A DNA stretch of 64,000 nucleotides from Hyphomonadaceae bacterium (GTDB lineage: Bacteria > Pseudomonadota > Alphaproteobacteria > Caulobacterales > Hyphomonadaceae). Made by a program: the position numbers and the translations under genes. Positions 5,027 to 56,279 of the stretch are shown in pieces. The notes under the pieces were generated by a model. That model saw only the letters and a program-made list of their open reading frames with translations. It was not told the origin of the DNA and searched no databases. Position 1 is the first letter of the stretch, and every line of letters starts with the position of its first letter. Where the stretch lies: assembly GCA_022844345.1 (NCBI GenBank), contig JALHLU010000010.1:1-64000 (forward strand). Reading direction: 5' to 3'.

Positions 5027-5164
5027 TCCTTGAAACCATTTCCCGCTTCAAGCGACCGGGGTGTGGAGCCGGGGTCTCACTTGTCGAAAGCCTCTTGCAT
5101 ATCGCTCATTCCGGAACTTCCACCTTGATCCTGCGCAGTCATTCGGGCCCTGCGTCGGGTATAG

Positions 5165-40447: not shown

Positions 40448-40474
40448 TATATTGACACTCGTTATGTCAATATA
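40448..40474. promoter_or_regulatory. 27-bp operator, copy A (dehalogenase)
   Basis: TATATTGACA-N7-TGTCAATATA: perfect 10-bp arms. Core TTGACACTC-N4-TGTCA. It lies 65 bases upstream of the dehalogenase start codon. Three further copies occur at 42684, 46513 and 54389. Size and symmetry fit a TetR-family operator, and the cluster encodes one TetR protein. Confidence 0.75.
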
Positions 40475-40538
40475 TACGCGGAGGCCAGTCTTGACGCTCG
40501 CAGCAATCCTGCGAGGGAAAAATGGCGGGAGAGGCTGG

Positions 40539-41438
40539 ATGAAAGTGTTGCGTACGCCCGACGACCGATTCGCAAACCTGCCGGGGTATCCTTGGGCGCC
40601 TAACTACCTGACCATCAAGGACGAGGACGGCGCCGAACTCCGCGTCCACTATATTGATGAGGGCCCGCGCGATGCCGAGCCGATCCTGCTGCTGCATGGC
40701 AACCCCACCTGGTCCTATCTCTATCGCAAGATGATCCCTGGCCTGCTCAAGACCGGGCGGCGCGTGATTGCCGTCGATCTTCCAGGCACCGGCAAGTCCG
40801 ACAAGCCAGCAGATCGCACCGACTACACGCTTGCCCGCCATTATGACTGGGCGTCGAAATGGTTCACCACGCTGAGCCTCACGAACGTCACCCTGTTCTG
40901 TCAGGACTGGGGCGGCACGATAGGCCTCTATCTCGTCTCGAAATACCCGGAACGTTTCGCGCGCGTTGTCGCATCAAACACCGGCGTGCCCACCGGCGAG
41001 GGCGAAAGCGACTTCATGAAGATGTGGGTCGGGATGATGGCCGTCGCCACGGAGTTTCCGTGGCCCGTGCTGGAATCCGGCATGGTCACGAAGTTGAGCG
41101 CAGACGAAATCGCCGCCTATCGGGCGCCCTATCCCACCAGCGCGTATGAAAACTGCCTGATCACCTGGCCGAGCCTGATCACCGTCCAGCCGACGAATCC
41201 CGGCCTGCCGCTGAACCTCGCCGCATGGGAGAGGCTCCAGACGTTCGAGAAGCCCTTCCTCACGCTGTTTGCGGAACTCGATCCTGTCGGCCGTGGGTGG
41301 GAGGCGCGAGCGCAGGCGAACATCCCGGGCGCCAAGGGGCAGGATCACGCCATCATCCCAAACGCCCACCACTTTATCCAGGAAGACGCAGCCGACGACC
41401 TCGTCGCCCGCATCACCCGATTCCTCGACGTGAAATAG
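40539..41438 (+). CDS. haloalkane dehalogenase (HLD-I type)
   Basis: 299 residues from the ATG at 40539, after GGGAGAGG and starting MKVLRTPDDRFANLPGYPWAPNYL as in family members. It hydrolyses a carbon-halogen bond, releasing halide and alcohol. Alpha/beta-hydrolase core: oxyanion HGNPTWSY (53-60), nucleophile Asp123 followed by Trp124 in FCQDWGG, a second candidate halide-binding Trp175, acid Asp248 (FAELDPVG) and His278 (NAHHFIQED). The D-W and late Asp fit subfamily I (DhlA/DmbB-like). There is no signal peptide, so it is cytoplasmic. It is controlled by its own 27-bp site. Other serine-type hydrolases of the fold are excluded by the Asp nucleophile. Confidence 0.85.
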   Translation: MKVLRTPDDRFANLPGYPWAPNYLTIKDEDGAELRVHYIDEGPRDAEPILLLHGNPTWSYLYRKMIPGLLKTGRRVIAVDLPGTGKSDKPADRTDYTLARHYDWASKWFTTLSLTNVTLFCQDWGGTIGLYLVSKYPERFARVVASNTGVPTGEGESDFMKMWVGMMAVATEFPWPVLESGMVTKLSADEIAAYRAPYPTSAYENCLITWPSLITVQPTNPGLPLNLAAWERLQTFEKPFLTLFAELDPVGRGWEARAQANIPGAKGQDHAIIPNAHHFIQEDAADDLVARITRFLDVK

Positions 41439-41458
41439 CCAGGAAAGCTGCCGCGCGC

Positions 41459-41833
41459 TCAGCGTGGCAGCCACTTCCATCCCGCCGCGAACAGCACCAG
41501 CAGAACCGCTTCGATCGCCATCGGCGGCCCCACCTCGGGCGCGAAGCCGTTCACCGCCACCGTGACCAGACGTCCCGTTAGTGCGAGCCCGATCAGCACG
41601 ACCGGCGGGAGCAGCATCCCGCCGTGTCCCTTGACCGCCGCCATCAACGCAAACAGGCCGCCGGCTCCGAAGAAGCCGCCCATGTCCGCGCGGATCGTCG
41701 CCAGGCCCAGAGGCCCGGACGCGGCGACCCCCAGTTGCGCGGCCGCCTCCGCCGGCGCCATCCACATCCGCGCCGCAACCAACAGGGCCAGCAGGCCAGC
41801 CACGCCCACAAGCACACGCAACACCAGCTTCAT
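41459..41833 (-). CDS. small four-helix membrane protein (DUF4345-like)
   Basis: 124 residues, almost entirely hydrophobic, with four predicted helices (about 5-24, 40-65, 72-92 and 100-120). The stretch WMAPAEAAAQLGVAASGPLGLATIRADMGGFFGAGGLFALMAAV resembles DUF4345-type proteins. The stop is 20 bases from the convergent dehalogenase stop; the start is five bases after the DJ-1-like gene, with which it forms a two-gene operon under the 27-bp site at 42684. No function is known. Confidence 0.65.
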   Translation of the reverse strand: MKLVLRVLVGVAGLLALLVAARMWMAPAEAAAQLGVAASGPLGLATIRADMGGFFGAGGLFALMAAVKGHGGMLLPPVVLIGLALTGRLVTVAVNGFAPEVGPPMAIEAVLLVLFAAGWKWLPR

Positions 41834-41838
41834 GTCTC

Positions 41839-42672
41839 TCAGCCTCCCTTGAAAGGCGTCTCGAGGATGACCTGCATCATCCGGTCCGCCGTCTCCGCTC
41901 CGTCATTCTGGTTCTGGCCCGTCACCAGCCGTCCATCCGTGGTCACATGGCTTGCAAAGATGTCCCTGAACCGTGTCGCGGACTCGAACTTCGCGCCTGC
42001 CGCGCGCAAGTCCCGCTCCGGATGCCTCGGCGTGTGCGTGATGCCAAGCTCCTTCACCTGCTTGTCGGTCACCGCCGTCAGCTTGCGGCCATTCACAAGA
42101 GGTTGGCCATTGCCGCGCTTTGCCGCCAGCAAGCCCAGCGGACCGTGGCAAACGCCGCCGATCACCGCGCCTGCGTCCTCGGCCTGCAGAAGCAAACGGC
42201 CCAGCTCGGGCGACTGCTCGAAATCGAAGGCCGCGCCCCAGCCGCCCGCCAGGAACACGGCATCATACTGTCCGCCATCCAGCAGGCTGATGGCGCTAGC
42301 CGCATCGACCTTGCGGCGCAACTCCCTATCCTTCAGAAACCGGTCGTCATGCGCCGATTTCAGCGGCCACTTCACGGACATGGGCTCGACGGGAATCTTA
42401 CCGCCCGTGATGCTGGCTACATCCACATCCATCCCAGCGTCGAGAAAGGTATAGTACGGCGCGGTCATCTCGGAGGCGAAAACGCCGGTCTTCTTGCCCG
42501 TGTCGCCAAGTGTGTCGTGACTAGTTGCAATCACCAGGGCCCGTTTGCCCTTCAGGTTGCGCTTCGGGGCAGCAAAATGCCGGTGCAGCCCCATCGCCCT
42601 CAACAGCGCCGGAAGGCCGCGCCATATGATCAGGACCGACACGACCGCGGCCGACAGAACGATCCACTCCAT
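41839..42672 (-). CDS. DJ-1/PfpI-family protein, membrane-anchored
   Basis: 277 residues. The N-terminal helix (about 3-20) anchors a DJ-1/PfpI (class I glutamine amidotransferase-like) domain: ALVIATSHDTLGDTGKKTGVFASEMTAPYYTFLDAG, DAVFLAGGWGAAFDF, and the nucleophile elbow with Cys175-His176 (GGVCHGPLGLL). It resembles Hsp31-like glyoxalase III or chaperone-type members. The membrane helix is unusual for the family. It is divergent from the first sulfatase gene; the 27-bp site begins 12 bases upstream of its start codon. Confidence 0.8.
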   Translation of the reverse strand: MEWIVLSAAVVSVLIIWRGLPALLRAMGLHRHFAAPKRNLKGKRALVIATSHDTLGDTGKKTGVFASEMTAPYYTFLDAGMDVDVASITGGKIPVEPMSVKWPLKSAHDDRFLKDRELRRKVDAASAISLLDGGQYDAVFLAGGWGAAFDFEQSPELGRLLLQAEDAGAVIGGVCHGPLGLLAAKRGNGQPLVNGRKLTAVTDKQVKELGITHTPRHPERDLRAAGAKFESATRFRDIFASHVTTDGRLVTGQNQNDGAETADRMMQVILETPFKGG

Positions 42673-42683
42673 CCCCGGCTCCC

Positions 42684-42710
42684 TAAATTGACATTCCAGG
42701 TGTCATAATA
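42684..42710. promoter_or_regulatory. 27-bp operator, copy B (DJ-1 / sulfatase 1)
   Basis: Core TTGACATTC-N4-TGTCA with arms TAAATTGACA and TGTCATAATA. It sits in the 74-base divergent gap, 12 bases from the DJ-1-like start and 37 from the sulfatase start, and so can control both directions. Confidence 0.7.
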
Positions 42711-42746
42711 TCCCATGACCTCCTTGTACAGCGCCGGGGTCGAGTC

Positions 42747-44546
42747 ATGCGCCACGTCTTCCGCAATGGTCTCACAGCAGCCATCCTGTCTATGGCCAGC
42801 CTCCTGCCCGCAGCGGCGCAGCAGGAGGCGGAGCCCGCCGCAAAACGCCCCAACATCATTCTGATTCTTGTAGATGACGCCGCCTTCATGGACTTCGGCG
42901 CATATGGCGGCGAGGCGCGCACCCCCAACATCGACCGTCTGGCGGCCTCCGGCGCGATGATGACGAACTACCACACCTCCCCATTGTGCTCGCCCTCGCG
43001 CGCCATGTTGCTGACCGGCATGGACAGCCACCGCACAGGCGTCTCGACCATTGAGGAAGTCCTCCCGCCGGAACTGAAGGGCAAGCCAGGCTATACCCTC
43101 CGCCTCGAGCCGGGCGTTCTCACCATCGCGGACCGCCTCAAGGCTGCAGGCTATCGCACGCTGATGTCGGGCAAGTGGCATCTCGGCCATGGCGATGGCG
43201 ACCTGCCCAACCATCATGGGTTCGACCGGTCGCTGGCGCTCGATGCTTCCGGTGCCGACAACTGGGCGGCCAAGGCCTACATGCCCTACTACAAGGACGC
43301 CCCATGGTTCGAGGATGGCGCGCCCGCGAAGCTGCCTGATGCGTTCTATTCTTCCGAGCTGCTGGTCGACCGCCTGATCCAGTATATCGATGAGAGCGAC
43401 AGCAGCGCGCCCTATTTCGGCTACCTGGCCTTTCAGGCCGTGCACATTCCAGTTCAGGCCCCCAAGGAGTTTTCCGACCGCTATGCCGGCCAGTTCGACG
43501 CCGGCTGGGAAGCCACTCGCCGCGCGCGTTGGGACCGGGCCGTAGCCTCAGGCATCGTTCCAGCGGGCGCGCCCTTCGCCGCCTTACCGGATGACTCGCG
43601 CACGTGGCTCTCGCTCACGGCTCAAGATCGCGCCAAGTACGCCCGCGCCATGGAAGTCTATTCCGGCATGATCGAGGCGATGGACCACCATATCGGGCGC
43701 CTGATGCAGCATATCTCGGCCCGGGGAGAGCTCAACAACACCATCTTCGTCATCACGTCCGACAACGGCCCCGAACCCAGCGACCCGGTTCACGAACCGT
43801 GGATGGATATCTGGATGGCGCTCAACGGCTATAACTGGAACCTCGACGGTATGGGGGAGGCCGGCAGCCTTGGCTTCATCGGCCCCGAATGGGCCTCAGC
43901 CGTTTCGGCGCCTGGGTCCTTCTACAAGTTCTACGCTTCCAGCGGCGGCCTGCGCGTGCCCATGGTAATTGCGGGTCCAGGAGTACCAGCTGGCCAGCGT
44001 CATGCCGGCCTGTCGTTTGTCACAGATGTCACGCCGACCTTGCTGGACCTTGCGGGCGCCGGCGCCGCCACGCCCGAGGGGGCCCGCCCCCTGACGGGCC
44101 GCAGCCTCCTGCCTATGCTTTCCGGCGAAGTGGACCGCGCCTACGGCCCCGGCGACGCGATTGGCGTCGAAGTCTCAGGCAATTCTGCGCTCTTCCGTGA
44201 CACCTGGAAGATCGTCCGCAATATGCCGCCGGTGGGCGACGGCAAGTGGCGTCTCTACGATCATGTGAAGGACCCGGCCGAGGTGAACGATCTCTCAGAG
44301 GCCATGCCGGACGTCTTCAAGTCGATGCTGGCGGGCTACGACGCATACGCGGCCGGCTCCGGCGTCCTTGCCCTGCCGGACGGGTACCAGGTTGAGCGCC
44401 AGGTTCGCCGCAACGCCATCGCCCGGCAGCTCTCCTTTCATGCCGGCGCTCTGGTCGCGATTGGTACCGTCTTCGTGGCTATGGTTGGCCTGCTGGCCTT
44501 CTGGCTCCTGCGCCGCCGCAAGCGGAAGCACCCAGCACGGGCATGA
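42747..44546 (+). CDS. exported type I sulfatase, membrane-anchored
   Basis: 599 residues, alkaline-phosphatase-superfamily sulfatase. Signal peptide about 1-25 (LLPAAAQ). Metal site IILILVDDAAFMDFGAYGG; Cys-type maturation motif LCSPSRAMLLTG with Cys81 to be oxidised to formylglycine; SGKWHLGH; and FVITSDNGPEPSD. The C-terminal helix (about 568-590) followed by RRRKRKH anchors it in the inner membrane, facing the periplasm. It hydrolyses a sulfate ester; the substrate is unknown. The next gene starts within its stop (ATGA). A formylglycine-generating enzyme is encoded nearby (49318-50241). Confidence 0.9.
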   Translation: MRHVFRNGLTAAILSMASLLPAAAQQEAEPAAKRPNIILILVDDAAFMDFGAYGGEARTPNIDRLAASGAMMTNYHTSPLCSPSRAMLLTGMDSHRTGVSTIEEVLPPELKGKPGYTLRLEPGVLTIADRLKAAGYRTLMSGKWHLGHGDGDLPNHHGFDRSLALDASGADNWAAKAYMPYYKDAPWFEDGAPAKLPDAFYSSELLVDRLIQYIDESDSSAPYFGYLAFQAVHIPVQAPKEFSDRYAGQFDAGWEATRRARWDRAVASGIVPAGAPFAALPDDSRTWLSLTAQDRAKYARAMEVYSGMIEAMDHHIGRLMQHISARGELNNTIFVITSDNGPEPSDPVHEPWMDIWMALNGYNWNLDGMGEAGSLGFIGPEWASAVSAPGSFYKFYASSGGLRVPMVIAGPGVPAGQRHAGLSFVTDVTPTLLDLAGAGAATPEGARPLTGRSLLPMLSGEVDRAYGPGDAIGVEVSGNSALFRDTWKIVRNMPPVGDGKWRLYDHVKDPAEVNDLSEAMPDVFKSMLAGYDAYAAGSGVLALPDGYQVERQVRRNAIARQLSFHAGALVAIGTVFVAMVGLLAFWLLRRRKRKHPARA

Positions 44547-45619
44547 CCACAAGAAAGCGGCATACGCTGCACGGACTCAGACTTTCCTATTTTACAGGGA
44601 AGCTGGAGGCATATTTCCACGCCAAGGGCATCCCGTTTGACTATGTTGAAATGGACCTCGCGGATTTTCGCCGTTGCGCCCGAGCGACAGGGATCGCCCA
44701 GATGCCGCAGGTCGAGGCGCCCGATGGCGGCTGGCTGACGGACACCACCGGCATGATCGCACATTTCGAAGCCGCGATGTCCGAACCTGCCTTCATGCCC
44801 GCAGATCCGGCCGCCGCATTCATCAGCCTCCTGCTTGAAGACCTGTTTGACGAGTGGCTCTGGCGTCCTGCGCTCTACTATCGGTGGGCCTTTGCCGAGG
44901 ACGCAAGGCTGATGAGCTCGCAACTTGCGCGCACCATGCTCCGCGATGCGCCAGGACCGCTCTTCCTCCGACGGCAGGTGATCTTGCATCGGCAACGGCG
45001 CGTCTTCCTGAAAGAGGACGGCGTCACAAGAACGACCGCCCCGCAGATCGAAGACCTGTATCTGCGCACCCTCGCCATTCTCGAACCAATCTTTGCTGTC
45101 CGCCCCTACCTTTTTGGCGCACGCCCCTGCGAGGCGGACTTTGGACTCTTCGGTCCCTTCTTCCGCCATTTCTCATCGGACCCAACGCCCGCAGGCATTC
45201 TCCGCGATCGGGCGCCCCACACGCTAGCCTGGGTGTCTCGCCTGTGGGCCGCCACGCCCGCACAGTTCGCATCCACAGCTCCGACAACCGAGGCGCCCGC
45301 GGACCTTGCTTCGCTTCTCGCCATGGCGTGCGACGAGTACCTGCCTTACCTCGCTGCCAACAGCGATGCCGTACGCGCGGGCTATAGAAATGTCGTCTGG
45401 ACGCATCTGGGCGTCCGCTGGCAGACGCCCGCCTCGCCCTATCGCGCCAACTGTCTCGTCAGTCTGCAGGACGAGTATCAGATGCTTGATGCTGCCACAC
45501 GCGCGGTTGTCGACTCACGCCTGACCACGGCGGGATCGACCCTGCTGGCAACGCCGACTGCGGCTGCCCCAAAACCATCGACGACCGAGGCGAAACCGCT
45601 TGATCGCAACTGGCGCTGA
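44543..45619 (+). CDS. GST-like protein, long form (copy 1)
   Basis: 358 residues. The N-terminal thioredoxin-fold domain (about 8-85) is of glutathione S-transferase type: LRLSYFTGKLEAYFHAKGIPFDYVEMD, QMPQVEAPDGGWLTDTTGMIAHFE. A helical C-terminal domain (RPYLFGARPCEADFGLFGPFFRHF) is longer than in classical GSTs by some 120 residues, with WTHLGVRWQTPASPYRANCLVSLQDEY near the end. It is coupled to sulfatase 1 by ATGA overlap. A paralogue of the same length class is at 46589. A glutathione-dependent step such as dehalogenation or ring-product handling is plausible but not shown. Confidence 0.75.
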   Translation: MTTRKRHTLHGLRLSYFTGKLEAYFHAKGIPFDYVEMDLADFRRCARATGIAQMPQVEAPDGGWLTDTTGMIAHFEAAMSEPAFMPADPAAAFISLLLEDLFDEWLWRPALYYRWAFAEDARLMSSQLARTMLRDAPGPLFLRRQVILHRQRRVFLKEDGVTRTTAPQIEDLYLRTLAILEPIFAVRPYLFGARPCEADFGLFGPFFRHFSSDPTPAGILRDRAPHTLAWVSRLWAATPAQFASTAPTTEAPADLASLLAMACDEYLPYLAANSDAVRAGYRNVVWTHLGVRWQTPASPYRANCLVSLQDEYQMLDAATRAVVDSRLTTAGSTLLATPTAAAPKPSTTEAKPLDRNWR

Positions 45620-45681
45620 CCGCCGCGACAGGGCAAATCCAATCATGCAAATGCAGGCCAAGACCCGGGATGGAGGATGCG

Positions 45682-46476
45682 ATGACTGACCTGGTGAAAA
45701 TCTCCGACCGCGGCCATGTCCGAACCGTGGCGCTCAACCGGCCGAAGGTAAAGAATGCGCTGTCCGATGATCTCGCCTGGTCCGTCATCAACGCAATTGA
45801 TGACGCGGCCAAGGATGACAATGTCTGGGTTATCGCTGTCACTGGAACGGGCGACGCATTCTGTGCGGGACTCGACCTGACGATGAAGGAGCGCACCTCA
45901 CCTCTGAGCCCGCAGAGTGCGCAACTCGATGATCTTGGCTGGGTGGGACACTTCCTCCTGTCGATCCGAAAGCGCTGCGACAAGCCGGTGGTCGGCGGGG
46001 TCAATGGCGTAGCCGTCGGCGCCGGGCTGGGCCTCGCCATGGCCTGCGACGTGCGTCTCGTCGCAAGAAGCGCGCGCCTCATGGCTGGATATACCCGCAT
46101 TGGCGGATCGCCCGATGGCGGCCTCACCATTACCCTGCCACAGGCCATGGGATATGAGCGCGCAATGCGCTTCATGATGGAAAACCGCACGGTGACCGGA
46201 GAGGAAGCCGTCGCCATCGGCATGGCGGGCGAGATGGTGGCTGATGCGCAATTCACCGATCGTCTTGCCGAATACTGCGAAGAACTCTGCCGCTGGTCGC
46301 CAATCACGTTGCGACTGCTCAAACGCGGCATGGTGAAATCGATGGAATCCAACGACATGGAGCAGCAGCTCCGCTTCGAACTCGCCAATATCCGTCGCGC
46401 CTTCGCAAGTGAGGACGCCACGGAAGCCCGGCAAGCTCTCATCGAGAAGCGGCAACCCGTATTCAAGGGCAAGTAG
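45682..46476 (+). CDS. enoyl-CoA hydratase/isomerase family protein
   Basis: 264 residues from the ATG at 45682, which has GGAGG seven bases upstream; an ATG 12 bases earlier is in frame. Crotonase fold: GTGDAFCAGLDLTMKE (oxyanion hole), GGVNGVAVGAGLGLAMACDVRLVARSARLMAGYTRIGGSPDGG (second half). The residues expected as Glu pair in hydratases are replaced by Gly and Asp, so an isomerase or hydrolase activity is as likely. It lies within the rightward cluster, 62 bases after the GST-like gene. Confidence 0.85.
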   Translation: MTDLVKISDRGHVRTVALNRPKVKNALSDDLAWSVINAIDDAAKDDNVWVIAVTGTGDAFCAGLDLTMKERTSPLSPQSAQLDDLGWVGHFLLSIRKRCDKPVVGGVNGVAVGAGLGLAMACDVRLVARSARLMAGYTRIGGSPDGGLTITLPQAMGYERAMRFMMENRTVTGEEAVAIGMAGEMVADAQFTDRLAEYCEELCRWSPITLRLLKRGMVKSMESNDMEQQLRFELANIRRAFASEDATEARQALIEKRQPVFKGK

Positions 46477-46512
46477 GAGCCTGTCGTGAGCCTGTTCCGG
46501 TTGACGAACGCC

Positions 46513-46539
46513 GCTTTTGACACTCTAACTGCCATTTGA
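46513..46539. promoter_or_regulatory. 27-bp operator, copy C (GST-like / sulfatase 2)
   Basis: Core TTGACACTC-N4-TGCCA, with flanks GCTT before and TTTGA after. It lies between the enoyl-CoA hydratase stop (46476) and the GST-like start (46589), implying an internal promoter. It matches copy D at 54389 in 22 of 27 positions. Confidence 0.7.
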
Positions 46540-46588
46540 ATGCGCGGGCCGGAAAACGCCTGCGTGCCTGCGTTCGGGAGGTCGTCGC

Positions 46589-47629
46589 ATGAGCCAGTCA
46601 TCCGGACCACTTGAGCTGATGGGCGCGCCGGGGTCGCCCTACACGCGCAAGATGCTCGCCCTGCTTCGCTATCGTCGCATTCCACACGCCATCATCTGGG
46701 CCAGCCACCGCAACCCGCCGGCAGGGTATCCCGAACCGGCCGTAAAGCTGTTGCCCACATTCTACTTTCCGAAGGCTGGCGGCGGCCTCGACGCCGTGGT
46801 CGACTCCACGCCGATCATTCGCCGCCTCGAAAAAGAACACTTTGGTCGTTCGACACTGCCGTCAGATTCAGTACTCGCCTTTCTCAACTTCCTGATAGAG
46901 GACTACGCGGACGAGTGGCTCACCAAGTGCATGTTCCACTTTCGCTGGGCCCACAAGGCGGACGCAGACAACGCTGGCCCGATGCTGATCTTCTGGAACC
47001 AGCCCACCATTTCCGACGCGGAGGCTGGCCCGGCATCAGACTTCATCGCGAAGCGCCAGATCGACCGCCTCTATGTTGTTGGCTCCAATCGCACCACCGC
47101 TGAGACCATCGAAAGCAGCTACGCCCGTCTCGTCGTCGCGCTTGACGCCCTGATCCGGCGTCATGGCTATGTGCTTGGTGCGCGGCCTTCCGCGGCGGAC
47201 TTCGCACTCTATGGTCAGCTGACCCAACTGGCCATCGTCGAGCCAACCTCCGCCGCCATCACCGCAGCCACTTCCCGCCGCGTGCGCGGCTGGCTTGATC
47301 GCGTGGAGGATCTCTCCGGTCTCTCCCCCCAAGACGCCGACTGGCTTTCACGCGACGCCATGCGCGCCAGCATTGGGCCGCTGCTGCAGGAAATCGGCCG
47401 CGTTTATGCGCCCTTCCTGCTTGCCAACGCTCAGGCCGTCATGGCCGGAGCACAGAGCTTCGAGACCACCATCGATGGCCGTCCCTGGACACAGCCAACA
47501 TTCCCCTACCAGGCCAAGTGCCTGAAGTGGATCCGGGACGAATTCAGCGCGCTTGCGCCCGGCGATCAGGCCGAAATCAAGAACCTCTTCACCGGCACGG
47601 GCTGCGACGCCTTGCTCGCCGGCCTCTGA
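46589..47629 (+). CDS. GST-like protein, long form (copy 2)
   Basis: 346 residues with a good ribosome site (GGGAGG). N-terminal thioredoxin-fold: GAPGSPYTRKMLALLRYRRIPHAIIWAS, LLPTFYFPKAGGGLDAVVDSTPIIRRLE; the SPYTRK motif is GST-like with a possible catalytic Ser. C-terminal helical domain LGARPSAADFALYGQLTQLAIVEP, then an extra segment ending RPWTQPTFPYQAKCLKWIRDEFSAL, matching in position the extra segment of copy 1. The two therefore belong to one uncommon family of long GST-like proteins. It is followed by sulfatase 2 14 bases later. Confidence 0.78.
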   Translation: MSQSSGPLELMGAPGSPYTRKMLALLRYRRIPHAIIWASHRNPPAGYPEPAVKLLPTFYFPKAGGGLDAVVDSTPIIRRLEKEHFGRSTLPSDSVLAFLNFLIEDYADEWLTKCMFHFRWAHKADADNAGPMLIFWNQPTISDAEAGPASDFIAKRQIDRLYVVGSNRTTAETIESSYARLVVALDALIRRHGYVLGARPSAADFALYGQLTQLAIVEPTSAAITAATSRRVRGWLDRVEDLSGLSPQDADWLSRDAMRASIGPLLQEIGRVYAPFLLANAQAVMAGAQSFETTIDGRPWTQPTFPYQAKCLKWIRDEFSALAPGDQAEIKNLFTGTGCDALLAGL

Positions 47630-47643
47630 TACAGGAAGCGCGC

Positions 47644-49308
47644 ATGCTGAAGAAGATTCTGATCGGCCTGCTCGTCGTCGTCCTCGTGGGCGGCGGCGTG
47701 GCCTGGCTCAACCGAAAGGCCATCGTCCTTTTTGTCGTGGGCAACACAGGCAAGCGGGACGTCGGACCCAACATCCCCGTTCCATGGGCGGATGGCCCTG
47801 CCGAAGCCGCAGGCCCGCCGGGCGGACGCAAGCCGAACATCATCTTCATCCTGGCCGACGATCTCGGCTTCAATGACATCTCGACCTTCGGCGGCGGCGT
47901 TGCTGGCGGGCGAGTTCCAACGCCGAACATTGATCGCCTGGCTGCGCGCGGCGCCGTCTTCACCCAGGCCTATGCTGGCACAGCGACCTGCGCGCCTTCG
48001 CGCGCCATGATCATGACGGGCCGCTACCCAACACGCACGGGTTTCGAATTCACGCCCACACCCGACGGCATGGGCGGCATCATCTCCATGCTGGACGACC
48101 CCAGCGCCACCGGCCTGCCTGCTGTCGTCTACAACAAGGAACAGGCAGAACAGGCGCCCACCTATACGCTGCAGGGACTGCCCGGTTCGGAGGTCACCGT
48201 GGCTGAAGTGCTGCGGGATGCAGGCTATCACACCGTACACATCGGCAAATGGCACACCGGCACAGGCCCGGAGTTCGGACCCAACGCGCAGGGCTTCGAT
48301 GAAGCTCTGCTTATGGCTTCCGGCCTCCACCTGCCGGAGAACGATCCCAACGTAATCAACGCCAAACTGCCGTTTGACCCTATCGACGCCTTCCTGTGGG
48401 CGCGCATGCAGTATGCTGCCTCCTTCAATGGAGGCCCCTGGTTCGAGCCGGGCGGCTATCTTGCTGACTACTGGACCGATGAAGCTGTCAATGTGATCAG
48501 GAAGAATCGGAACCAACCCTTTTTCCTGAAACTCGCACACTGGGGCGTCCACACGCCGTTGCAGGCGACCAGGACGGACTATGACGCTGTTGGCGACATC
48601 GAACCGGAACGCCTGCGTGTTTACGCAGCCATGGTGCGCTCGATCGATCGCAGCGTCGGCCGTATCTTGGATACCCTGGAAACAGAAGGCCTCGCCGAGA
48701 ACACCATCATCGCCTTCACCAGCGACAATGGCGGGGCCGGCTATATCGGCCTGCCCGACGTAAACCAGCCCTATCGCGGCTGGAAAATGACGCTGTTCGA
48801 GGGCGGCATCCATGTTCCCATGTTCATCAGCTGGCCCGGCCGCATTGCGCCGCAGTCACAGGTCGCGCTGCCCGTCGCGCACATAGACCTGATGCCGACT
48901 TTTGCTGCCGCCGGTGGCGGCACAATTCCCGCTGGCGTCGAGATCGATGGCGTCGATCTGTTGCCATTCGCAACCGGAACAGCCGCGGCCGGCGCGAAGC
49001 CCCACGATGTCATCTTCTGGCAGAGCGCCTACTACAAGGCTGTCCGCCAGGGCGACTGGAAGCTGCAGGTGACCGACAAACCGGCAAAGACCTGGCTGTT
49101 CAATCTTGCCATGGACCCCACCGAGAAGGCGAACGTGGCCGATCAGAACCCTCAGAAGGTGGCGGAGCTGAAGAAACTGTTGGCGGACCACCAGGCCACC
49201 GCCCGCCCGCCGCTCTATCCGCACACGACTGAAGGCGCGATCTCGGTCGACAAGACGGCGGCGGACAAGGCGACTGCAGAAGACGAATACGTTGTCTGGC
49301 CAAACTGA
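47644..49308 (+). CDS. exported type I sulfatase, N-terminally anchored
   Basis: 554 residues from the ATG at 47644 (AGGAAG seven bases upstream); the frame is open further left, inside the GST-like gene. The N-terminal helix (about 4-22) without a clear cleavage site suggests a membrane anchor. Motifs: NIIFILADDLGFNDISTFGGG, TCAPSRAMIMTGRYPT with Cys116 for formylglycine, HIGKWHTG, LAHWGVHTP and IAFTSDNGGAG. The layout is that of arylsulfatases. It is convergent with the formylglycine-generating-enzyme gene, 9 bases apart. The substrate is unknown. Confidence 0.9.
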   Translation: MLKKILIGLLVVVLVGGGVAWLNRKAIVLFVVGNTGKRDVGPNIPVPWADGPAEAAGPPGGRKPNIIFILADDLGFNDISTFGGGVAGGRVPTPNIDRLAARGAVFTQAYAGTATCAPSRAMIMTGRYPTRTGFEFTPTPDGMGGIISMLDDPSATGLPAVVYNKEQAEQAPTYTLQGLPGSEVTVAEVLRDAGYHTVHIGKWHTGTGPEFGPNAQGFDEALLMASGLHLPENDPNVINAKLPFDPIDAFLWARMQYAASFNGGPWFEPGGYLADYWTDEAVNVIRKNRNQPFFLKLAHWGVHTPLQATRTDYDAVGDIEPERLRVYAAMVRSIDRSVGRILDTLETEGLAENTIIAFTSDNGGAGYIGLPDVNQPYRGWKMTLFEGGIHVPMFISWPGRIAPQSQVALPVAHIDLMPTFAAAGGGTIPAGVEIDGVDLLPFATGTAAAGAKPHDVIFWQSAYYKAVRQGDWKLQVTDKPAKTWLFNLAMDPTEKANVADQNPQKVAELKKLLADHQATARPPLYPHTTEGAISVDKTAADKATAEDEYVVWPN

Positions 49309-49317
49309 AGGCGCTGT

Positions 49318-50241
49318 CTAGTCTGCAACGTCCCGCACGATGCGGAAGCCGATGTGGTTGGATGAAAAATCCACGTCCTGCCACTGCCGGGCAGCCCCGC
49401 GATAGCGTTTGCAGAAATTCTCGGCGCAGAGGAACGAGCCGCCCTTGATCAGGTTCTGCCGATCGCCAAGGGCCGTCGCGGTCCACTCCCACACATTGCC
49501 GATCATGTCGTAGAGCCCGATGCGGCTCGCCGGAAAGCATCCCGCTGGCGCGCCCTCTGCGAAACCATCCGCCGCCTCGTTGATCAAGGGGAAAATGCCT
49601 TGCCACGTATTGGCGACGGGACGCCCGTCCGAGTCGTACGCGCCCGATGTGGATGTGGCGGGATCGGGCATGCCAAGCATGGCGGCGTATTCCCATTCCT
49701 CCTCGGTTGGCAGCCGTCCGTCGGCCCATGCTGCGTAGGCCCGCACATCGTTGAACGACACATGCACAACCGGATGGTCCATCTTGCCCGCCAGGCCGCT
49801 GCCGGGCCCCTGGGGCGTCCGCCACGTCGCGCCGCGCACCAACAGCCACCCGCCGGGCTCGCTGGACGACGCCCCCTGCACGAACAAGCCCGATCCGCCG
49901 CCCGGATCAGTTGAGGCGGAGGTCCGCTCGGCATCGGTAAAGTAACCTGTATCTGCAACGAAGCGCTCGAACTGGCGATTGGTCACTTCGTGAATCTGGA
50001 TGGCGAAGCTGGCCACGTGCACTGTCTGCGGCGGCCCCTCCTCGGGATAGATGCCGTTGGCGCCCATCTCGAAGCGGCCTGCGGGCACAGTGACGAACTG
50101 GCCCGCCAGATCTGCCGCAAGGCCGCACGTCGGCGCTTCTACAACTTGCGCCTCCGAAGGCGATGCACTCCCGGATGCTGACTCGCCTGAACAGGCCGCC
50201 AGGCACACTCCCGCAGTGAGCAGACAGGCTGCTAGTCTCAT
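49318..50241 (-). CDS. formylglycine-generating enzyme, lipoprotein
   Basis: 307 residues. The signal peptide has a lipobox (LLTAGVCLAAC), so the enzyme is lipid-anchored outside the cytoplasm. FGE-sulfatase domain about 45-305: FVTVPAGRFEMGANGIYPEEGPP, HEVTNRQFERFV, HPVVHVSFNDVRAYAAWADGRLPTEEEWEYAA, GNVWEWTATAL. Near the C-terminus, GGSFLCAENFCKRYRGAARQ keeps both active-site cysteines (C-x4-C) of true FGE. It converts the Cys of CxPxR motifs to formylglycine, activating the two sulfatases encoded next to it. The start overlaps the TetR stop (ATGA). It is last in the leftward operon from the 27-bp site at 54389. Confidence 0.88.
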   Translation of the reverse strand: MRLAACLLTAGVCLAACSGESASGSASPSEAQVVEAPTCGLAADLAGQFVTVPAGRFEMGANGIYPEEGPPQTVHVASFAIQIHEVTNRQFERFVADTGYFTDAERTSASTDPGGGSGLFVQGASSSEPGGWLLVRGATWRTPQGPGSGLAGKMDHPVVHVSFNDVRAYAAWADGRLPTEEEWEYAAMLGMPDPATSTSGAYDSDGRPVANTWQGIFPLINEAADGFAEGAPAGCFPASRIGLYDMIGNVWEWTATALGDRQNLIKGGSFLCAENFCKRYRGAARQWQDVDFSSNHIGFRIVRDVAD

Positions 50242-50870
50242 TTTCCGGCCACCAGGCGCTCCACCGTGAAGCGCAACACCTTCAGCGCATCAGCAACCGA
50301 GAGTCGCTGGTCCTGCCGAAGCCTGCGCCAGGCCTGGAACCCCGTCGCCATCTCGATCGCCGAAAAAAGTATGTAATCGCTCACGATCTTGGGCGGCAAT
50401 ACGCGCTTGAGGCCCTGGCGCTCCATTCGCAGGAAGCGGTTGTAGTCATCCATCAGGAAGTGCGAGCGGAAACGTTGTAGACTGCCTGCTATCTTCAGCG
50501 GCATCACTCGCTCATAGATGTGCGCCCGCCGCTCCAACAACTCGTCCATCTGCAGGCGCCAGGTCTTGCCTTCAAACGGCTTCTCGACCAGCGGCAGGAT
50601 TTCGGCCTCGACGATGGCGCTGATTTCACGGTTGAGCGTATCCATTTCCTCGAAATGGCGAAACACGGTGCGCAGGCCGACATTGGCCTTCTCCGCGACG
50701 CGGGCAGCTGCAGGCTGCATCTCGCCTGCGCGGATCAACTCGATCATCGCGCGCACGATCTGCTCGCGGCTGCGACTGGAACGTTGGCGGCGACCATCGG
50801 CCTCGTCGGCGGCCGCTGCGCCCTGCGCCGCGTGGGAGGCAATCGCCTTGGTCTGTACGCGATCAGTCAA
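50238..50870 (-). CDS. TetR family transcriptional regulator
   Basis: 210 residues from a TTG at 50870; an in-frame stop lies two codons upstream, and the first ATG would cut the DNA-binding domain. Helix-turn-helix about 28-75 (RSREQIVRAMIELIRAGEMQPAAARVAEKANVGLRTVFRHFEEMDTL). The C-terminal ligand domain is diverged. It sits inside the leftward operon, coupled to the FGE gene. As the only TetR gene in the cluster it is the natural binder of the four 27-bp sites (40448, 42684, 46513, 54389), including the one at the head of its own operon. Binding is inferred from size, symmetry and position. Confidence 0.85.
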   Translation of the reverse strand: MTDRVQTKAIASHAAQGAAAADEADGRRQRSSRSREQIVRAMIELIRAGEMQPAAARVAEKANVGLRTVFRHFEEMDTLNREISAIVEAEILPLVEKPFEGKTWRLQMDELLERRAHIYERVMPLKIAGSLQRFRSHFLMDDYNRFLRMERQGLKRVLPPKIVSDYILFSAIEMATGFQAWRRLRQDQRLSVADALKVLRFTVERLVAGK

Positions 50871-50959
50871 CCGTTAGTCCCTGTATTTGCAACATCGACA
50901 GGTAGCACGAAACAGGCCCGGACGAAGCGGGATTTCCAGCGACGCCGGACTGCTTGCCC

Positions 50960-52042
50960 TCAGCGAATGACAGACTGTTTGATCGCCGCGCCTCCCGCGG
51001 GCAGTGAGATCAGAAGCCCGTCCTCCGCGACACGGATCGGTCCCCTGTAGTTCGCCGGGGCGTCGCCAAGGAAAGCCGCATCCAGAAGCGAGGACGGCAG
51101 GGGCGGCACGATGTGATAGAGCACCAGAGCCTTTGCGTTGGCGGCAGCCGCCGCCCGCGCGGCGTCTTCAGGCGAGGCGTGATAGTCCAGAATATCGCCC
51201 ATGACTTTCGCGATATGAGGCTGCCCCTTGGCCGCAGCCGCATCACGCATCTGCGCCACCATCACCGGCTGCAACGCCTCGTGCAGCAGCACGTCCGTGT
51301 CCTTCGCTGCGGCCACCAGTTCCGGGGAATACGTCGTGTCGCCGCTGATCACGACGCTTCGGCCCCTGTAATCGATGCGATATCCGAAGGCAGGTTCAAC
51401 TGGCGCATGATCAACCCCGATCACAGTGATCTTCACGCCGTCCCGGTCATGGATCACAGCTGTCATGGCCGGCGCCGCGGGTGCAGGGATTACTTCGGCC
51501 ACACCCCCAAACCCCGCCGGATCAGCAATCTCCGCACCATGGTGCGCCGTGCGATAGGAGCTGTCGATGCGATAGGCGGCATTGAAGCCGGTCACCACAT
51601 CTTCCACACCCATCGGACCCGCGATTGGCAGAGGTTGCCTCCGGGTCCCGCCAACCCAGGCCTGCAGCATCAACTCGCCCAGCGCATCGATGTGATCTGA
51701 ATGGAGATGCGTGAGATACACCTTCTCGATCCGTCCCACGGGAAAGCCCATGCGTGCGAGCCGCCTTGGACCACCGGATCCTGCATCGACCACCATGACG
51801 TGGCGACCTGCAACCACACCCAGGCACGGCCCCGCACGCGATGGGTCAGGCATTGGCGAGCCCGAACCGCACACAAACACGTGCAGCCCATCCGGCAACT
51901 CTGCCGCGCGATCGCGCCCGATATTCTCATCCACGGCCTGACGGAACATGGCGTCGCCAATCTGCCGCTGGAATAGAAAGGCGCCCGCCGCCACGACCGC
52001 AAGCAGACCAACCGCCCCCAGCGCCATGTACCGCCATTTCAT
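50960..52042 (-). CDS. metallo-beta-lactamase-fold hydrolase, membrane-anchored
   Basis: 360 residues. N-terminal helix (about 5-22) then an MBL domain with VYLTHLHSDHIDALGELMLQ (HxHxDH metal motif), a later metal Asp region (VVISGDTTYSPELV) and a terminal His (LVLYHIVPP). The order resembles RNase Z/AtsA-like arylsulfatase MBL proteins, so an alkyl or aryl sulfatase or esterase role is possible in this context. It likely faces the periplasm. It lies in the leftward operon, 3 bases after the DUF1330 gene and 89 bases before the TetR gene. Confidence 0.82.
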   Translation of the reverse strand: MKWRYMALGAVGLLAVVAAGAFLFQRQIGDAMFRQAVDENIGRDRAAELPDGLHVFVCGSGSPMPDPSRAGPCLGVVAGRHVMVVDAGSGGPRRLARMGFPVGRIEKVYLTHLHSDHIDALGELMLQAWVGGTRRQPLPIAGPMGVEDVVTGFNAAYRIDSSYRTAHHGAEIADPAGFGGVAEVIPAPAAPAMTAVIHDRDGVKITVIGVDHAPVEPAFGYRIDYRGRSVVISGDTTYSPELVAAAKDTDVLLHEALQPVMVAQMRDAAAAKGQPHIAKVMGDILDYHASPEDAARAAAAANAKALVLYHIVPPLPSSLLDAAFLGDAPANYRGPIRVAEDGLLISLPAGGAAIKQSVIR

Positions 52043-52045
52043 ACG

Positions 52046-52510
52046 TCAGGCCTTCATGCTTTGGGCCAACGCCGACAGCCAGTCCGGCAGGAAATCGACC
52101 TGCGCCAGCTTCGTCTCGATGTTCAACTGGCCCTTGAGCCCTGCCGTGCGATGCACGGAAGCCTCGCGCCATTCTGGCGAGAAAGACATCCGCACCATGT
52201 CTCCGCGCTGCGGATAGGCGGCGATGGCGATCTCGTCCCATAGCTCTTCCACGCGCCCCAGCGACAGGAAGGTCACGTCTGCCGCGAACACCGCGCGGCC
52301 GCCAAACTTCGGCAGGATATCGGTCACTGCCCGCCCATAGATCTGATACGCCTCGCGGCCTGTCAGCGTGGTTGCGCGCCCATCCTCATACTCCGCCTTG
52401 TCCTTAAACTTCAGCAGGTTCACCATGAAGATTGGGCCATCCGGTCCCTTCTCGCGCAGCGCCTCGATCTGCGCGGGATCACTCGGGTAGACGTCATTGG
52501 TGACTTGCAT
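52046..52510 (-). CDS. DUF1330-like protein
   Basis: 154 residues. A ferredoxin-like alpha/beta barrel family is suggested by PIFMVNLLKFKDKAEYEDGRATTLTGREAYQIYGRAVTDILPKFGGRAVFAADVTFLSLG, the usual DUF1330 core, though at 154 residues it is longer than the common 95-residue form and has a C-terminal extension. Cytoplasmic; activity unknown. It lies in the middle of the leftward operon between the tandem DsbA-like gene (22-base gap) and the MBL gene (3-base gap). Confidence 0.75.
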   Translation of the reverse strand: MQVTNDVYPSDPAQIEALREKGPDGPIFMVNLLKFKDKAEYEDGRATTLTGREAYQIYGRAVTDILPKFGGRAVFAADVTFLSLGRVEELWDEIAIAAYPQRGDMVRMSFSPEWREASVHRTAGLKGQLNIETKLAQVDFLPDWLSALAQSMKA

Positions 52511-52531
52511 CGCATTGCTCCCTTTGTTGTC

Positions 52532-53806
52532 TCATGTGCGGCTGGCGCGAATGGCTTCCTCGATCACCCAGAGGCGATCCTGCCCCCAGGCTGAAACGGC
52601 GTTGAACCGGAAGCTCGGCACGCCCCACAATCCCAGAGATGTTAGCTCTACGCGGTTGGCTTCCGCCTGCGCGCGCCATCCATAGCCGCCGACCAGCGGC
52701 CGCGCCGCCTGCCAGCTCAGCCCTGCGGCGTCCACGATACGGCGCATGCCGCTGTCGCTGCCTGCATCAATCCCCTGAGACCACACGCCTCGCATGAAGG
52801 CCAGGCAATACTCAAAACCACGCCCTTGCTCGATCGCCCATGGCAACAGCGAATACCCGCGCTCGACCGGCCGCCCCAACGGGTCCGCGACCCGTCCGAA
52901 AGGCACGCCCACGCGGCGGGCCTCCCGCGCCGCATCCAGTGTGATGTAGGTCCGCTTGGCAGGCGGCACCGGCAGTCCCCGCATGACCATGGGCAGTACG
53001 AACCGCAGTTTCAGTTCGAGCCCATAGGCGTCGGCCAGCGCCTTGGCGCGCTCAGCGGCGATGTAGGTGTAGGGACTGCGAAACGACAGGTAGAAGTGGA
53101 TCGCCCCCCCCGCGACGGGCCCTGCATCCGCACGCGGCGAAAGCGGCTGAGCGTAGATCGCGACTCCTGGCGCTCTGTCTCGACGCGCTCCGAGACCGGC
53201 CAGCCTTTCTTCAAGGAAGTGCAGCCGATCGAGCCCCCAATACCATTCGCCGCCATAGTGCAGCATGCCGCTCAGATAATGTCCGCGCTTCCGGCGCAGG
53301 GAATCACCCTCGCGCTTTGCGACAACCGCATCATCTCGAACGTCCGGTATCGACGCGCCCGACCATAGCTCTTCGCATATGCGGGCAAGACCCTGCACAG
53401 GCTGTGCCTCTTTGAGGCAGGCTGCCGAGGCAGCCTCGGCCATGGCGACACGCAGGGCGTCAGGCCAACCCACGCCCTCAGCGAAGACCAGTCCTGCCTT
53501 CTGCGCCAGGCGTTGCGCGTCGATACGCGACCAGGCCTCAAGCATGGCGCGTTCGGGAGCAGCCCAGTCCTGTGGAGCAGAAACGAGGTGACATCGAAGA
53601 TCAATCTCGTAGCGCAACGTCAGAAGCGGCAGCGCCTGCGCCAACAGCCACGAATACGGATCATCCACCTGATGGAAATAGTCGACATGATGTGGCTCGC
53701 CTGCGACGCGCCGCCGCCGCTCTTCACGCGTGCGGCGGGCCTGCAGCCGCTTGACGCCCGTGATCAATTCGGCCGCGCGAGACACGAGAAGGGTGCGAAG
53801 CGACAT
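52532..53806 (-). CDS. tandem DsbA/kappa-GST-like protein
   Basis: 424 residues. Two thioredoxin-like halves of the 2-hydroxychromene-2-carboxylate isomerase/kappa-GST type. The first (about 40-215) starts HHVDYFHQVDDPYSWLLAQALPLL. The second (about 245-420) starts AIHFYLSFRSPYTYIAAERAKALADAYGLELKLRFVLPMVMRGLPVP, has the typical AREARRVGVPFGRVADPLG and ends GVPSFRFN. The second half has the expected SPY motif; the first has DPY. Glutathione-dependent isomerase or oxidoreductase chemistry is inferred. There is no signal peptide. It lies second in the leftward operon, two bases after the small membrane-protein gene. Confidence 0.78.
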   Translation of the reverse strand: MSLRTLLVSRAAELITGVKRLQARRTREERRRRVAGEPHHVDYFHQVDDPYSWLLAQALPLLTLRYEIDLRCHLVSAPQDWAAPERAMLEAWSRIDAQRLAQKAGLVFAEGVGWPDALRVAMAEAASAACLKEAQPVQGLARICEELWSGASIPDVRDDAVVAKREGDSLRRKRGHYLSGMLHYGGEWYWGLDRLHFLEERLAGLGARRDRAPGVAIYAQPLSPRADAGPVAGGAIHFYLSFRSPYTYIAAERAKALADAYGLELKLRFVLPMVMRGLPVPPAKRTYITLDAAREARRVGVPFGRVADPLGRPVERGYSLLPWAIEQGRGFEYCLAFMRGVWSQGIDAGSDSGMRRIVDAAGLSWQAARPLVGGYGWRAQAEANRVELTSLGLWGVPSFRFNAVSAWGQDRLWVIEEAIRASRT

Positions 53807-53808
53807 TG

Positions 53809-54258
53809 TCAGCGCGTGGCCACAGGCTGCTCGCGCAGCGACATTGCGAGAAACGCCAGCGCAAGAATCGTCGCGACGGGACTAGCGAAATGTTCCGGCG
53901 GGTGATGATCACTGCCGGCACCCTTGAGCAGCCACGCATCAACCGACATGAGTCCACGGGATGCCGCAACTACAAGCAGGCCGATCGGCACGAGATTGCG
54001 ATAGCGAAGGCCGATCAGGAACAACAGCGCGCCAAACGGCATCTGCAGGGCTCCCATCCAGGCGAAGACGCGAACAATCGTCTTCGCATCCCCCGAGAGA
54101 TCAAGACCTGCGATTACCCCTGCTCCACCATCCGGGAGAAAATAGTGAATACATCCTGGGGCGAACTCAAACGCGCCAGCGGCCATCAAAAACCAAGCAG
54201 ACACAATGGCGCCGCGATAGTGCTCGTTCGTGCTGGGAGGCAGCAACGTCATCGTCAT
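53809..54258 (-). CDS. small membrane protein, unknown
   Basis: 149 residues with about four hydrophobic segments (about 15-35, 65-85, 88-105 and 125-142). The composition and the stretch GAFEFAPGCIHYFLPDGGAGVIAGLDL are not ones I can tie to a named family. First gene of the leftward operon; the 27-bp site D lies about 130 bases upstream. The operon order (membrane protein, tandem DsbA, DUF1330, MBL, TetR, FGE) suggests a role in handling the sulfatase products or substrates. Confidence 0.6.
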   Translation of the reverse strand: MTMTLLPPSTNEHYRGAIVSAWFLMAAGAFEFAPGCIHYFLPDGGAGVIAGLDLSGDAKTIVRVFAWMGALQMPFGALLFLIGLRYRNLVPIGLLVVAASRGLMSVDAWLLKGAGSDHHPPEHFASPVATILALAFLAMSLREQPVATR

Positions 54259-54388
54259 ATCCTGCCCGCAAACAACATTTCACCGTCTTGCTTCCGGTGG
54301 CGATTCCCAACGATCAGCGCTTGCGTCAGTTCGAGCCGAAACCGGACGCCTCGACATAGACGCCCGGTCATCTGCGCGATTGCCGGTC

Positions 54389-54415
54389 GCTATTGGCACT
54401 CCTACTGCCATTTCA
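54389..54415. promoter_or_regulatory. 27-bp operator, copy D (leftward operon)
   Basis: Core TTGGCACTC-N4-TGCCA, flanked by GCTA and TTTCA. It lies about 131 bases upstream of the first gene of the operon that includes the TetR gene. It is a close match to copy C (22 of 27). Confidence 0.7.
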
Positions 54416-54872: not shown

Positions 54873-55595
54873 ATGACGACCTCGAAAAGATCAACAGCTC
54901 CCCGGCGCCCAACAGAGACGGGATCAAGGAAACAGCTCAACAGCGATCTTCCGCTTGATGTGGAGATCGCCAACCGGCTGATCCGCGAAATAATTGAACT
55001 GCAGGTGCAGCCCGGTTCGTGGTTGCGCGAGCAGGAGATTGCCGCGCGGTTCGGTGTGTCGCGCTCGCCAGTCCGCGAGGCGCTGCGTCATATCGCGAAG
55101 CAGGGTTTCGTAGAGATGCACCCGTGGCGCGGCGCCCAGCTTGTCGAGCTGTCCGGCGAAACAACCGTGCATGTTTTCGACATGCTTGAGGCTATATACG
55201 GCGTGGTCGCCAAGCATGCCGCCCAGTCCATGCCGGCGGACAAATTGACCAAACTGCGAAGCTATCTGAAGCTTGTAGATCAGGCGGCAAAGTCCGGCGT
55301 GACAATGCAGGAGCGGGTTCGCCTGTCATTTGAAATTGGCCGTTACATTGGCAAATGGGGCACCACAGCCAAGACGTATGAGGTCTTCACCCACGTCGGG
55401 AACCTCGCCATGTGGCAGCACCGTTTCATGCTGACCGAGGACGTGTTCGCCCGTCGCTCAAAGGAAGTTCACTACGTTCTGGTCTCGGCGATCAAGAGCC
55501 GGGACGCTATCCGCGCCGAATGGGCCGCGCGCGCAATTGTGGACCTGAGCCGCGACCGCATCCTGCCGCACATCCCCGACCTTGCAAAAACCTAG
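54873..55595 (+). CDS. GntR family regulator, FadR/FCD group
   Basis: 240 residues: winged helix-turn-helix (about 28-95, LDVEIANRLIREIIELQVQPGSWLREQEIAARFGVSRSPVREALRHIAKQGFV) and a C-terminal helical FCD-type ligand domain (about 110-230). FCD members sense organic acids or acyl-CoAs and repress neighbouring catabolic genes. No ribosome site precedes the ATG; the palindrome TTGTCGACAA occupies that place, so a leaderless transcript is likely. An in-frame GTG at 54960 is an alternative start but would truncate the N-terminal arm. Transcribed alone; its targets are not evident in the window. Confidence 0.85.
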   Translation: MTTSKRSTAPRRPTETGSRKQLNSDLPLDVEIANRLIREIIELQVQPGSWLREQEIAARFGVSRSPVREALRHIAKQGFVEMHPWRGAQLVELSGETTVHVFDMLEAIYGVVAKHAAQSMPADKLTKLRSYLKLVDQAAKSGVTMQERVRLSFEIGRYIGKWGTTAKTYEVFTHVGNLAMWQHRFMLTEDVFARRSKEVHYVLVSAIKSRDAIRAEWAARAIVDLSRDRILPHIPDLAKT

Positions 55596-55931
55596 GCGAT
55601 ACCAACTAGTAGCTTTCACTTGACAACGCATCGTCGAATTGTCGACTATTCTCGTAGATTGACCTGATCGACACTCACCCGCGCAGATGTTCTGGACTAC
55701 GCCCGCTCAGTTATCGACATCGTGATTCAATTGTCCCGGGCCGACGGGCGCCGCTCAATTTCGGCCATCCGCATTTCCAAATGCGCCGGAGTTCTCAAGA
55801 GAGTGAGCACGTGGCGGCTAATCCGCGACCCGCTCTCTGACAACAATCACGAGCGCTGTTGGCCGCGTCGTAGGCGCGACCATCTAGCCTCGGGCTTGCA
55901 TCTGCATTTATATTTCGATATTTCTCGAATC
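55596..55931. other. 336-base intergenic region
   Basis: Contains TTGTCGACTA (55639-55648), a second near-match to the GntR palindrome, and the ArsR site at its right end. The open frame that extends the arsR reading frame to 55722 is not family-like. Confidence 0.45.
55914..55929. promoter_or_regulatory. ArsR operator
   Basis: TTCGA-N6-TCGAA inverted repeat in AT-rich sequence ending two bases before the arsR start codon, similar to sites bound by arsenic-responsive ArsR proteins. Confidence 0.6.
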
Positions 55932-56279
55932 ATGAGAGCCAAACAAGCGGTATCCGCTCTGTCCGCACTTGCGCATGATGGACGGTTGGCGGCCTTGCGC
56001 CTCCTGGTGAAGGCCGGGCCGGAGGGGCTGCCTGCAGGCGAGATCGCACAGCGGTTGAGGATGCCTTCGTCCTCGCTCTCCACGAACCTGATGCTGCTTT
56101 CAAATGCGGGTTTGGTCACCTCCGAACGTGACGGACGGTCCATCATTTACCGTGCCGATTTCGGCGCAATGGGCCGGCTTCTGGCCTTTCTGGTCGAGGA
56201 TTGCTGCAATGGCGCGCCCGAAGTTTGTGACCCGCTTGCCGCGACACTTGCAACGTGCACTTCAGAGAGGTGCCGATGA
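55932..56279 (+). CDS. arsR: ArsR family arsenic-responsive repressor
   Basis: 115 residues from the ATG at 55932. Winged helix-turn-helix: VSALSALAHDGRLAALRLLVKAGPEGLPAGEIAQRLRMPSSSLSTNLMLLSNAGLVTSERDGRSIIYRADF. The C-terminal DCCNGAPEVC supplies three cysteines suited to bind As(III), as in the proteobacterial ArsR branch with C-terminal thiols. It represses the operon; arsenite binding would release it. The TTCGA/TCGAA palindrome ends two bases from the start and no ribosome site is seen, so the mRNA is probably leaderless. Its stop overlaps arsC. Confidence 0.88.
   Translation: MRAKQAVSALSALAHDGRLAALRLLVKAGPEGLPAGEIAQRLRMPSSSLSTNLMLLSNAGLVTSERDGRSIIYRADFGAMGRLLAFLVEDCCNGAPEVCDPLAATLATCTSERCR

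Follow-up and report, generated by a model that had tools for sequence, protein, structure and literature searches.

Four copies of a palindromic operator mark a probable TetR-family regulon around a sulfatase and dehalogenase cluster in a Hyphomonadaceae bacterium

Why does one 27-bp inverted repeat occur four times among the sulfatase and dehalogenase genes of a Hyphomonadaceae bacterium, and which protein reads it? The stretch in which this question arises (the window) is 64,000 nucleotides long and covers positions 1 to 64,000 of contig JALHLU010000010.1 (assembly GCA_022844345.1); the repeats stand between 40 and 54 kb, around genes for a haloalkane dehalogenase, two sulfatases, a formylglycine-generating enzyme (FGE) and a TetR-family regulator. 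The four sites are very probably the operators of a local regulon under the TetR-family protein encoded at 50238-50870, which would also control its own gene and whose repression would be relieved by a ligand. Comparison across genomes makes the regulon, with this protein as its predicted binder, very likely; repression itself is likely, which is argued from the position of the sites and from analogy with BetI1, a TetR repressor described below. The sites and the proposed binder are as follows:

40448..40474, no strand assigned: operator A, TATATTGACACTCGTTATGTCAATATA, with perfect 10-bp arms, 61 bp upstream of the dehalogenase start
42684..42710, no strand assigned: operator B, in a divergent promoter region, with the DJ-1 unit leftward and the sulfatase 1 unit rightward
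46513..46539, no strand assigned: operator C, upstream of the genes for GST-like protein 2 and sulfatase 2
54389..54415, no strand assigned: operator D, upstream of the leftward operon orf149-DsbA-DUF1330-MBL-TetR-FGE
50238..50870, minus strand: TetR-family regulator, the proposed binder, assigned by fold and orthologues

All four 27-mers, including the perfect arms of copy A, are present where the initial annotation had placed them, and its statement that none occurs elsewhere in the window agrees with the count: the pattern TTGRCAYTC-N4-TGYCA has exactly four exact matches there, any other match in the window needs two mismatches, and none of 100 shuffles attains the observed total. In the whole genome of 4,185,665 bases these four are again the only exact matches, with three others at one mismatch, while the reversed pattern gives one. 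The looser pattern TGRCA-N7-TGYCA occurs at 10 places genome-wide (8 for the reversed-pattern control), and four of the 10 are these sites; the chance that at least four of 10 fall within one given 14-kb stretch is 2.6e-8, or about 8e-6 after correction for some 300 such stretches. That is to say, the observation is correct and far from chance.

Each copy had also been said to stand before a transcription unit. The upstream placement is right, but copy B is divergent, and the first gene of the leftward operon, a membrane open reading frame (ORF) of 149 amino acids at 53809-54258, had not been listed. Since copy B lies between two divergent units (DJ-1 with orf124 on one side, sulfatase 1-GST-enoyl-CoA hydratase on the other), the four sites serve five units. 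From operator D to the first ORF of its operon there are 131 bp.

A matrix was built from 61 sites of the form TGRCA-N7-TGYCA lying shortly upstream of cluster-gene homologues in the TetR loci of relatives, own genome excluded. Their consensus, AT-n-WWW-TGRCA-YT-N3-AR-TGYCA-WWW-n-AT, is palindromic and symmetric over about 29 bp. The asymmetric core as first written therefore has to be corrected, because its one-sided yTC is peculiar to the copies of this genome and is not kept in the sites of relatives. Conservation drops to background just outside positions -15 to +15, so that 27-31 bp are conserved between unrelated flanks. The idea that a constant -10 element follows the sites and would prove promoter overlap was rejected, there being no conserved column beyond those positions. 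In 659 kb of relatives' loci the spacing N7 occurs in 63 copies, against 4, 3, 1 and 4 for N5, N6, N8 and N9, and a complement decoy gives none. The initial annotation had proposed a whole-genome scan with a matrix made from its four sites; it had named few further matches as support and hundreds of matches at unrelated places as the outcome that would speak against it. At E<=10 the scan, which scored 150 of the 287 first-look candidates, returned eight rows, namely the four sites on both strands, and nothing else, which is the supportive outcome; operator A has the top score within the genome.

Does the motif follow the regulator? Among 105 Hyphomonadaceae genomes, 67 carry an orthologue of the TetR protein, and matrix matches (E<=0.05) occur in 55 of these 67 and in one of the 38 without it (Fisher p about 1e-16, uncorrected for phylogeny). 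Weaker sites are present in most of the genomes with tetR that fall below this threshold, and many of these sites lie in the tetR region. The same scan gave 110 distinct matches, and of these 77 are no more than 15 kb away from a tetR orthologue, against an expectation of about one. Conservation also reaches the other families of the order, in which 20 loci with TetR orthologues of about 35-60% identity hold 24 sites in 369 kb, versus none in reversed DNA. Individual sites are kept in place as well: operator B in loci L038, L072 and L076, operator C upstream of GST2 in many relatives, and operator D upstream of the dsbA/DUF1330 operon in many relatives. In locus L064, where tetR opens its unit, the site stands directly upstream of it; L125 has no sulfatase genes in the locus, yet a site is present in the tetR promoter region, which is shared with a divergent membrane gene resembling site-bearing genes elsewhere. 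The unique match in the genome, the co-occurrence, the conservation in other families and the sites before tetR all point towards the single regulon, with TetR as its probable binder, that had been proposed at first. A search of viral contigs for the TetR protein gave no match.

The protein itself is a divergent member of its family. No Pfam or NCBIfam model matches it at E<=0.001, and the closest sequence match in the PDB is a TetR at E 0.003. An AlphaFold model made from 23 orthologues (pLDDT 90.6) is all-helical with an N-terminal helix-turn-helix, and its top Foldseek matches in the PDB are TetR-family proteins (TM about 0.4-0.6); it is this modelled fold that carries the assignment. The recognition helix of the helix-turn-helix, V[GS][LQ]RTVFRHF, is kept in every intact orthologue aligned. 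An inverted-repeat operator near the regulator's own promoter, a trait of the family, is found here through site D and in relatives through L064 and L125.

Several observations weigh against a strictly local regulon read by this protein. Genome G041 has a TetR orthologue 62% identical to that of the window, with the same recognition helix, but without the cluster and without a matrix match at E<=2; this orthologue (L045 6973-7563) has an RND efflux operon on one side and a MarR gene on the other, and a change of target is possible. G064, a 90% complete assembly, has a site upstream of a dehalogenase and no TetR orthologue, and L068, a second TetR copy, lacks a site in its vicinity. Owing to these three exceptions, the link between TetR and the sites is strong but not absolute. 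In relatives, sites also occur off the cluster, near genes for dehalogenase, metallo-beta-lactamase-fold (MBL) and GST paralogues, DUF2855, an NADP-dependent oxidoreductase, a TPP enzyme, thiolase-like and MaoC proteins and others, so the regulon is broader than strictly local. On the side of method, the core columns of the matrix are invariant by construction, because the training sites were picked by the half-site pattern of the window, and the genome scan covered the share of candidates given above.

Could another regulator read the sites, with TetR a mere member of the regulon? Such a protein might be encoded elsewhere, or be the GntR/FCD regulator of 54873-55595, whose gene lies 458 bp from site D, and the G041 orthologue without sites, the G064 site without TetR and the off-cluster sites would suit it. 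Neither the GntR gene nor the adjacent histidine kinase/response regulator pair was found in the loci of 20 relatives, whereas TetR is present in all 20 and is the only regulator common to the clusters; GntR and the two-component pair were rejected as binders on this ground. Since the motif also tracks TetR through 105 genomes and stands upstream of tetR even in a locus without sulfatase genes (L125), another reader is improbable. An activating or dual role of TetR at some sites is likewise unlikely. The distances from site to start codon, which run from 12 to about 130 bp with site D at the far end, would leave room for activation in part of the cases, but many sites end 5-40 bp from the start codon, a distance at which activation is scarcely feasible, and those ending about 5-15 bp away have a position that suits repression. 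Most characterised TetR proteins are repressors, and BetI, the TetR of a sulfatase operon, binds over the -35 box and represses (PMC12442346).

Sigma-54 promoters carry a near-invariant GG at -24 and GC at -12. In site D (TTGGCACTCCTACTGCCA) a GG and a GC are likewise separated by 12 bp, which would allow the sites to be read as promoters of an alternative sigma factor (sigma-54-like TTGGCAC-N5-TTGC). Of the 61 sites, however, 40 have A in place of the second G at -24 and 24 have GT in place of GC at -12. The motif is, moreover, symmetric across some 29 bp, and divergent units are served by it. The sigma-54 reading fails at the very positions that define such promoters and is highly improbable. 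For chance repeats or a mobile repeat element there is the repetition itself and nothing further, against 27-31 bp conserved between unrelated flanks, uniqueness in the genome and positional conservation across families, by which this explanation is refuted and its probability becomes negligible.

The favoured model, an autoregulated TetR repressor, would work in the following way. The target of the TetR dimers would be the palindrome WWWTGRCAYT-N3-ARTGYCAWWW, which in each unit probably lies across, or right next to, the promoter or leader; once bound, the dimers would block transcription. The TetR protein would be freed by a small ligand, which is probably either the substrate or an intermediate, and five units would be derepressed: the dehalogenase; DJ-1 with orf124; sulfatase 1-GST1-enoyl-CoA hydratase; GST2-sulfatase 2; and orf149-DsbA-DUF1330-MBL-TetR-FGE. 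As tetR and the sulfatase-activating FGE share the site-D operon, the repressor would regulate itself and the output of sulfatase would be matched to that of its maturation enzyme. The genes of these units are:

40536..41438, plus strand: haloalkane dehalogenase, HLD-I (NCBIfam NF002043, 367 bits vs cut-off 265)
41459..41833, minus strand: 124-aa membrane ORF (orf124), downstream of the DJ-1-like gene; orthologues of 54-82% in syntenic loci
41839..42672, minus strand: DJ-1/PfpI-like protein (PF01965)
42747..44546, plus strand: sulfatase 1, formylglycine type, CSPSR, signal peptide and C-terminal membrane helix (PF00884, 2e-59)
44543..45619, plus strand: GST-like protein 1 (PF13417)
45670..46476, plus strand: enoyl-CoA hydratase/isomerase family protein (PF00378, 4e-48)
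46589..47629, plus strand: GST-like protein 2 (PF13417, PF13410)
47644..49308, plus strand: sulfatase 2, formylglycine type, CAPSR, N-terminal membrane anchor (PF00884, 6e-55)
49318..50241, minus strand: FGE, lipoprotein signal, C-x4-C active-site pair (PF03781, 5e-65)
50960..52042, minus strand: membrane-anchored MBL-fold hydrolase (PF12706)
52046..52510, minus strand: DUF1330-family protein (PF07045)
52532..53806, minus strand: DsbA-like protein, 424 aa (PF01323 at residues 236-419; N-terminal half by eye)
53809..54258, minus strand: 149-aa membrane ORF (orf149), first gene of the leftward operon; orthologues in the same place in L038, L040 and L041

Both sulfatases carry C-x-P-S-R, and the cysteine pair of the FGE (segment GGSFLCAENFCKRYRGAAR) is intact, as belongs to type I sulfatases with their maturation enzyme. 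The FGE begins with a LAAC lipobox, which suggests periplasmic rather than cytosolic activation of the sulfatases; most of the relatives' N-termini that were read (L038-L130) are also lipobox-like. Elsewhere in the genome a second sulfatase stands beside a second FGE-domain protein without an operator (C9:177204-179401), and there are four further FGE-domain proteins. The closest solved relative of the MBL hydrolase is 8gyg (E 9e-19), deposited as an arylsulfatase, and the second domain of the DsbA-like protein is, by its appearance, of the HCCA-isomerase/GST-kappa type. Divergent from site D, positions 54873-57896 hold the GntR/FCD regulator, an ArsR-type regulator, an arsenate-reductase-like phosphatase and an arsenite-transporter-like gene, which look like an arsenic resistance unit.

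How does the system compare with known ones? The dehalogenase resembles HLD-I enzymes (PDB 6f9o, 5esr and 4mj3) over its full length, and its catalytic residues are intact, the Asp-Trp nucleophile pair, the cap Trp, the Asp and the His being aligned with those of the solved structures; it differs from them in that it appears to be co-controlled with sulfatases. KstR and EthR, which represent TetR regulators of lipid or xenobiotic metabolism, are both among the Foldseek matches of the window TetR, and in KstR regulons one TetR governs several catabolic units through one palindrome. Identity in these fold matches is below 20%, and the operator sequence and the regulated genes differ. Another close case is BetI1 of Ruegeria pomeroyi, the TetR repressor of a choline/choline-O-sulfate operon; it has been reported that BetI1 controls the sulfatase gene betC through a palindromic operator with ATTGAC half-sites and gives a 29-bp footprint over the -35 box (PMC12442346). 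Common to both systems are a TetR-family regulator within its own regulon, a sulfatase gene as target, a palindromic operator and ATTGAC half-sites. In contrast, the BetI box ATTGACG*CGTCAAT is unspaced, whereas the ATTGRCA half-sites here stand 7 bp apart and the spacings N5, N6, N8 and N9 are at background; moreover, the window TetR matches no NCBIfam model. Because the BetI box has no spacer, the window TetR is not established as a BetI. The sulfatases score 112.8 and 142.1 bits with the choline-sulfatase model TIGR03417, far below its cut-off of 433, and a BetI-type regulator with a choline sulfatase was rejected on these scores and on the spaced half-sites.

The off-cluster operators of relatives would form an extended regulon, in which the assignment of single genes is weaker than for the main cluster. 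In L096, L107, L108, L109, L100, L104, L105 and L072 they are seen at dehalogenase paralogues, DUF2855, a CurA-like NADP-dependent oxidoreductase and a small DUF1330-like membrane protein. In L100 the site-bearing operon is dehalogenase-DUF1330-DUF2855-DsbA-MBL, directly preceded by an SdsA1-type alkyl sulfatase (3130-5193, plus strand; MBL, dimerisation and SCP2 domains). A 4-kb contig (G073:C63, L105) has two operators, at 1070 and 2193, around membrane DUF1330-like and DUF2855-like genes.

What would such a regulon serve? The enzyme content is consistent with a single inducible system for the degradation of a sulfated or halogenated compound, as initially proposed, and suggests that sulfate, possibly also halogen, would be removed first, with glutathione- or CoA-linked steps thereafter. 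A natural product bearing sulfate, halogen or both is a plausible substrate. A narrower idea, doubtful though it is, would be that the regulon is dedicated, throughout the order, to the catabolism or detoxification of organohalide sulfate esters of natural origin, such as algal chlorosulfolipids. Periplasmic sulfatases, activated in situ by the lipoprotein FGE, would then remove the sulfate, and the HLD-I dehalogenase with the GST-type enzymes would take off the halogen before acyl-CoA enzymes act. Chlorosulfolipids combine sulfate esters with chlorinated alkyl chains (alkyl C-Cl) and are now reported from coastal waters (PMC13413282), and Caulobacterales have been tied to organohalide metabolism by metagenomics (PMC10919026); the order sampled here is taken to be Caulobacterales from the name of the family.

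No description of this system was found in the papers searched on sulfatase, dehalogenase and TetR together, on the operator sequence or on chlorosulfolipid degradation, and this well-conserved, order-wide regulon, with TetR as its probable controller, is apparently undescribed. An exact operator and a candidate regulator are now given for a multi-gene system kept throughout an order of environmental bacteria. By means of the operator all co-regulated genes can be gathered, including the off-cluster dehalogenase paralogues, DUF2855 proteins, NADP-dependent oxidoreductases and MBL hydrolases of relatives, and a reporter on site A would permit direct screening for the inducing compound and hence for the targets of the co-regulated sulfatases and dehalogenases.

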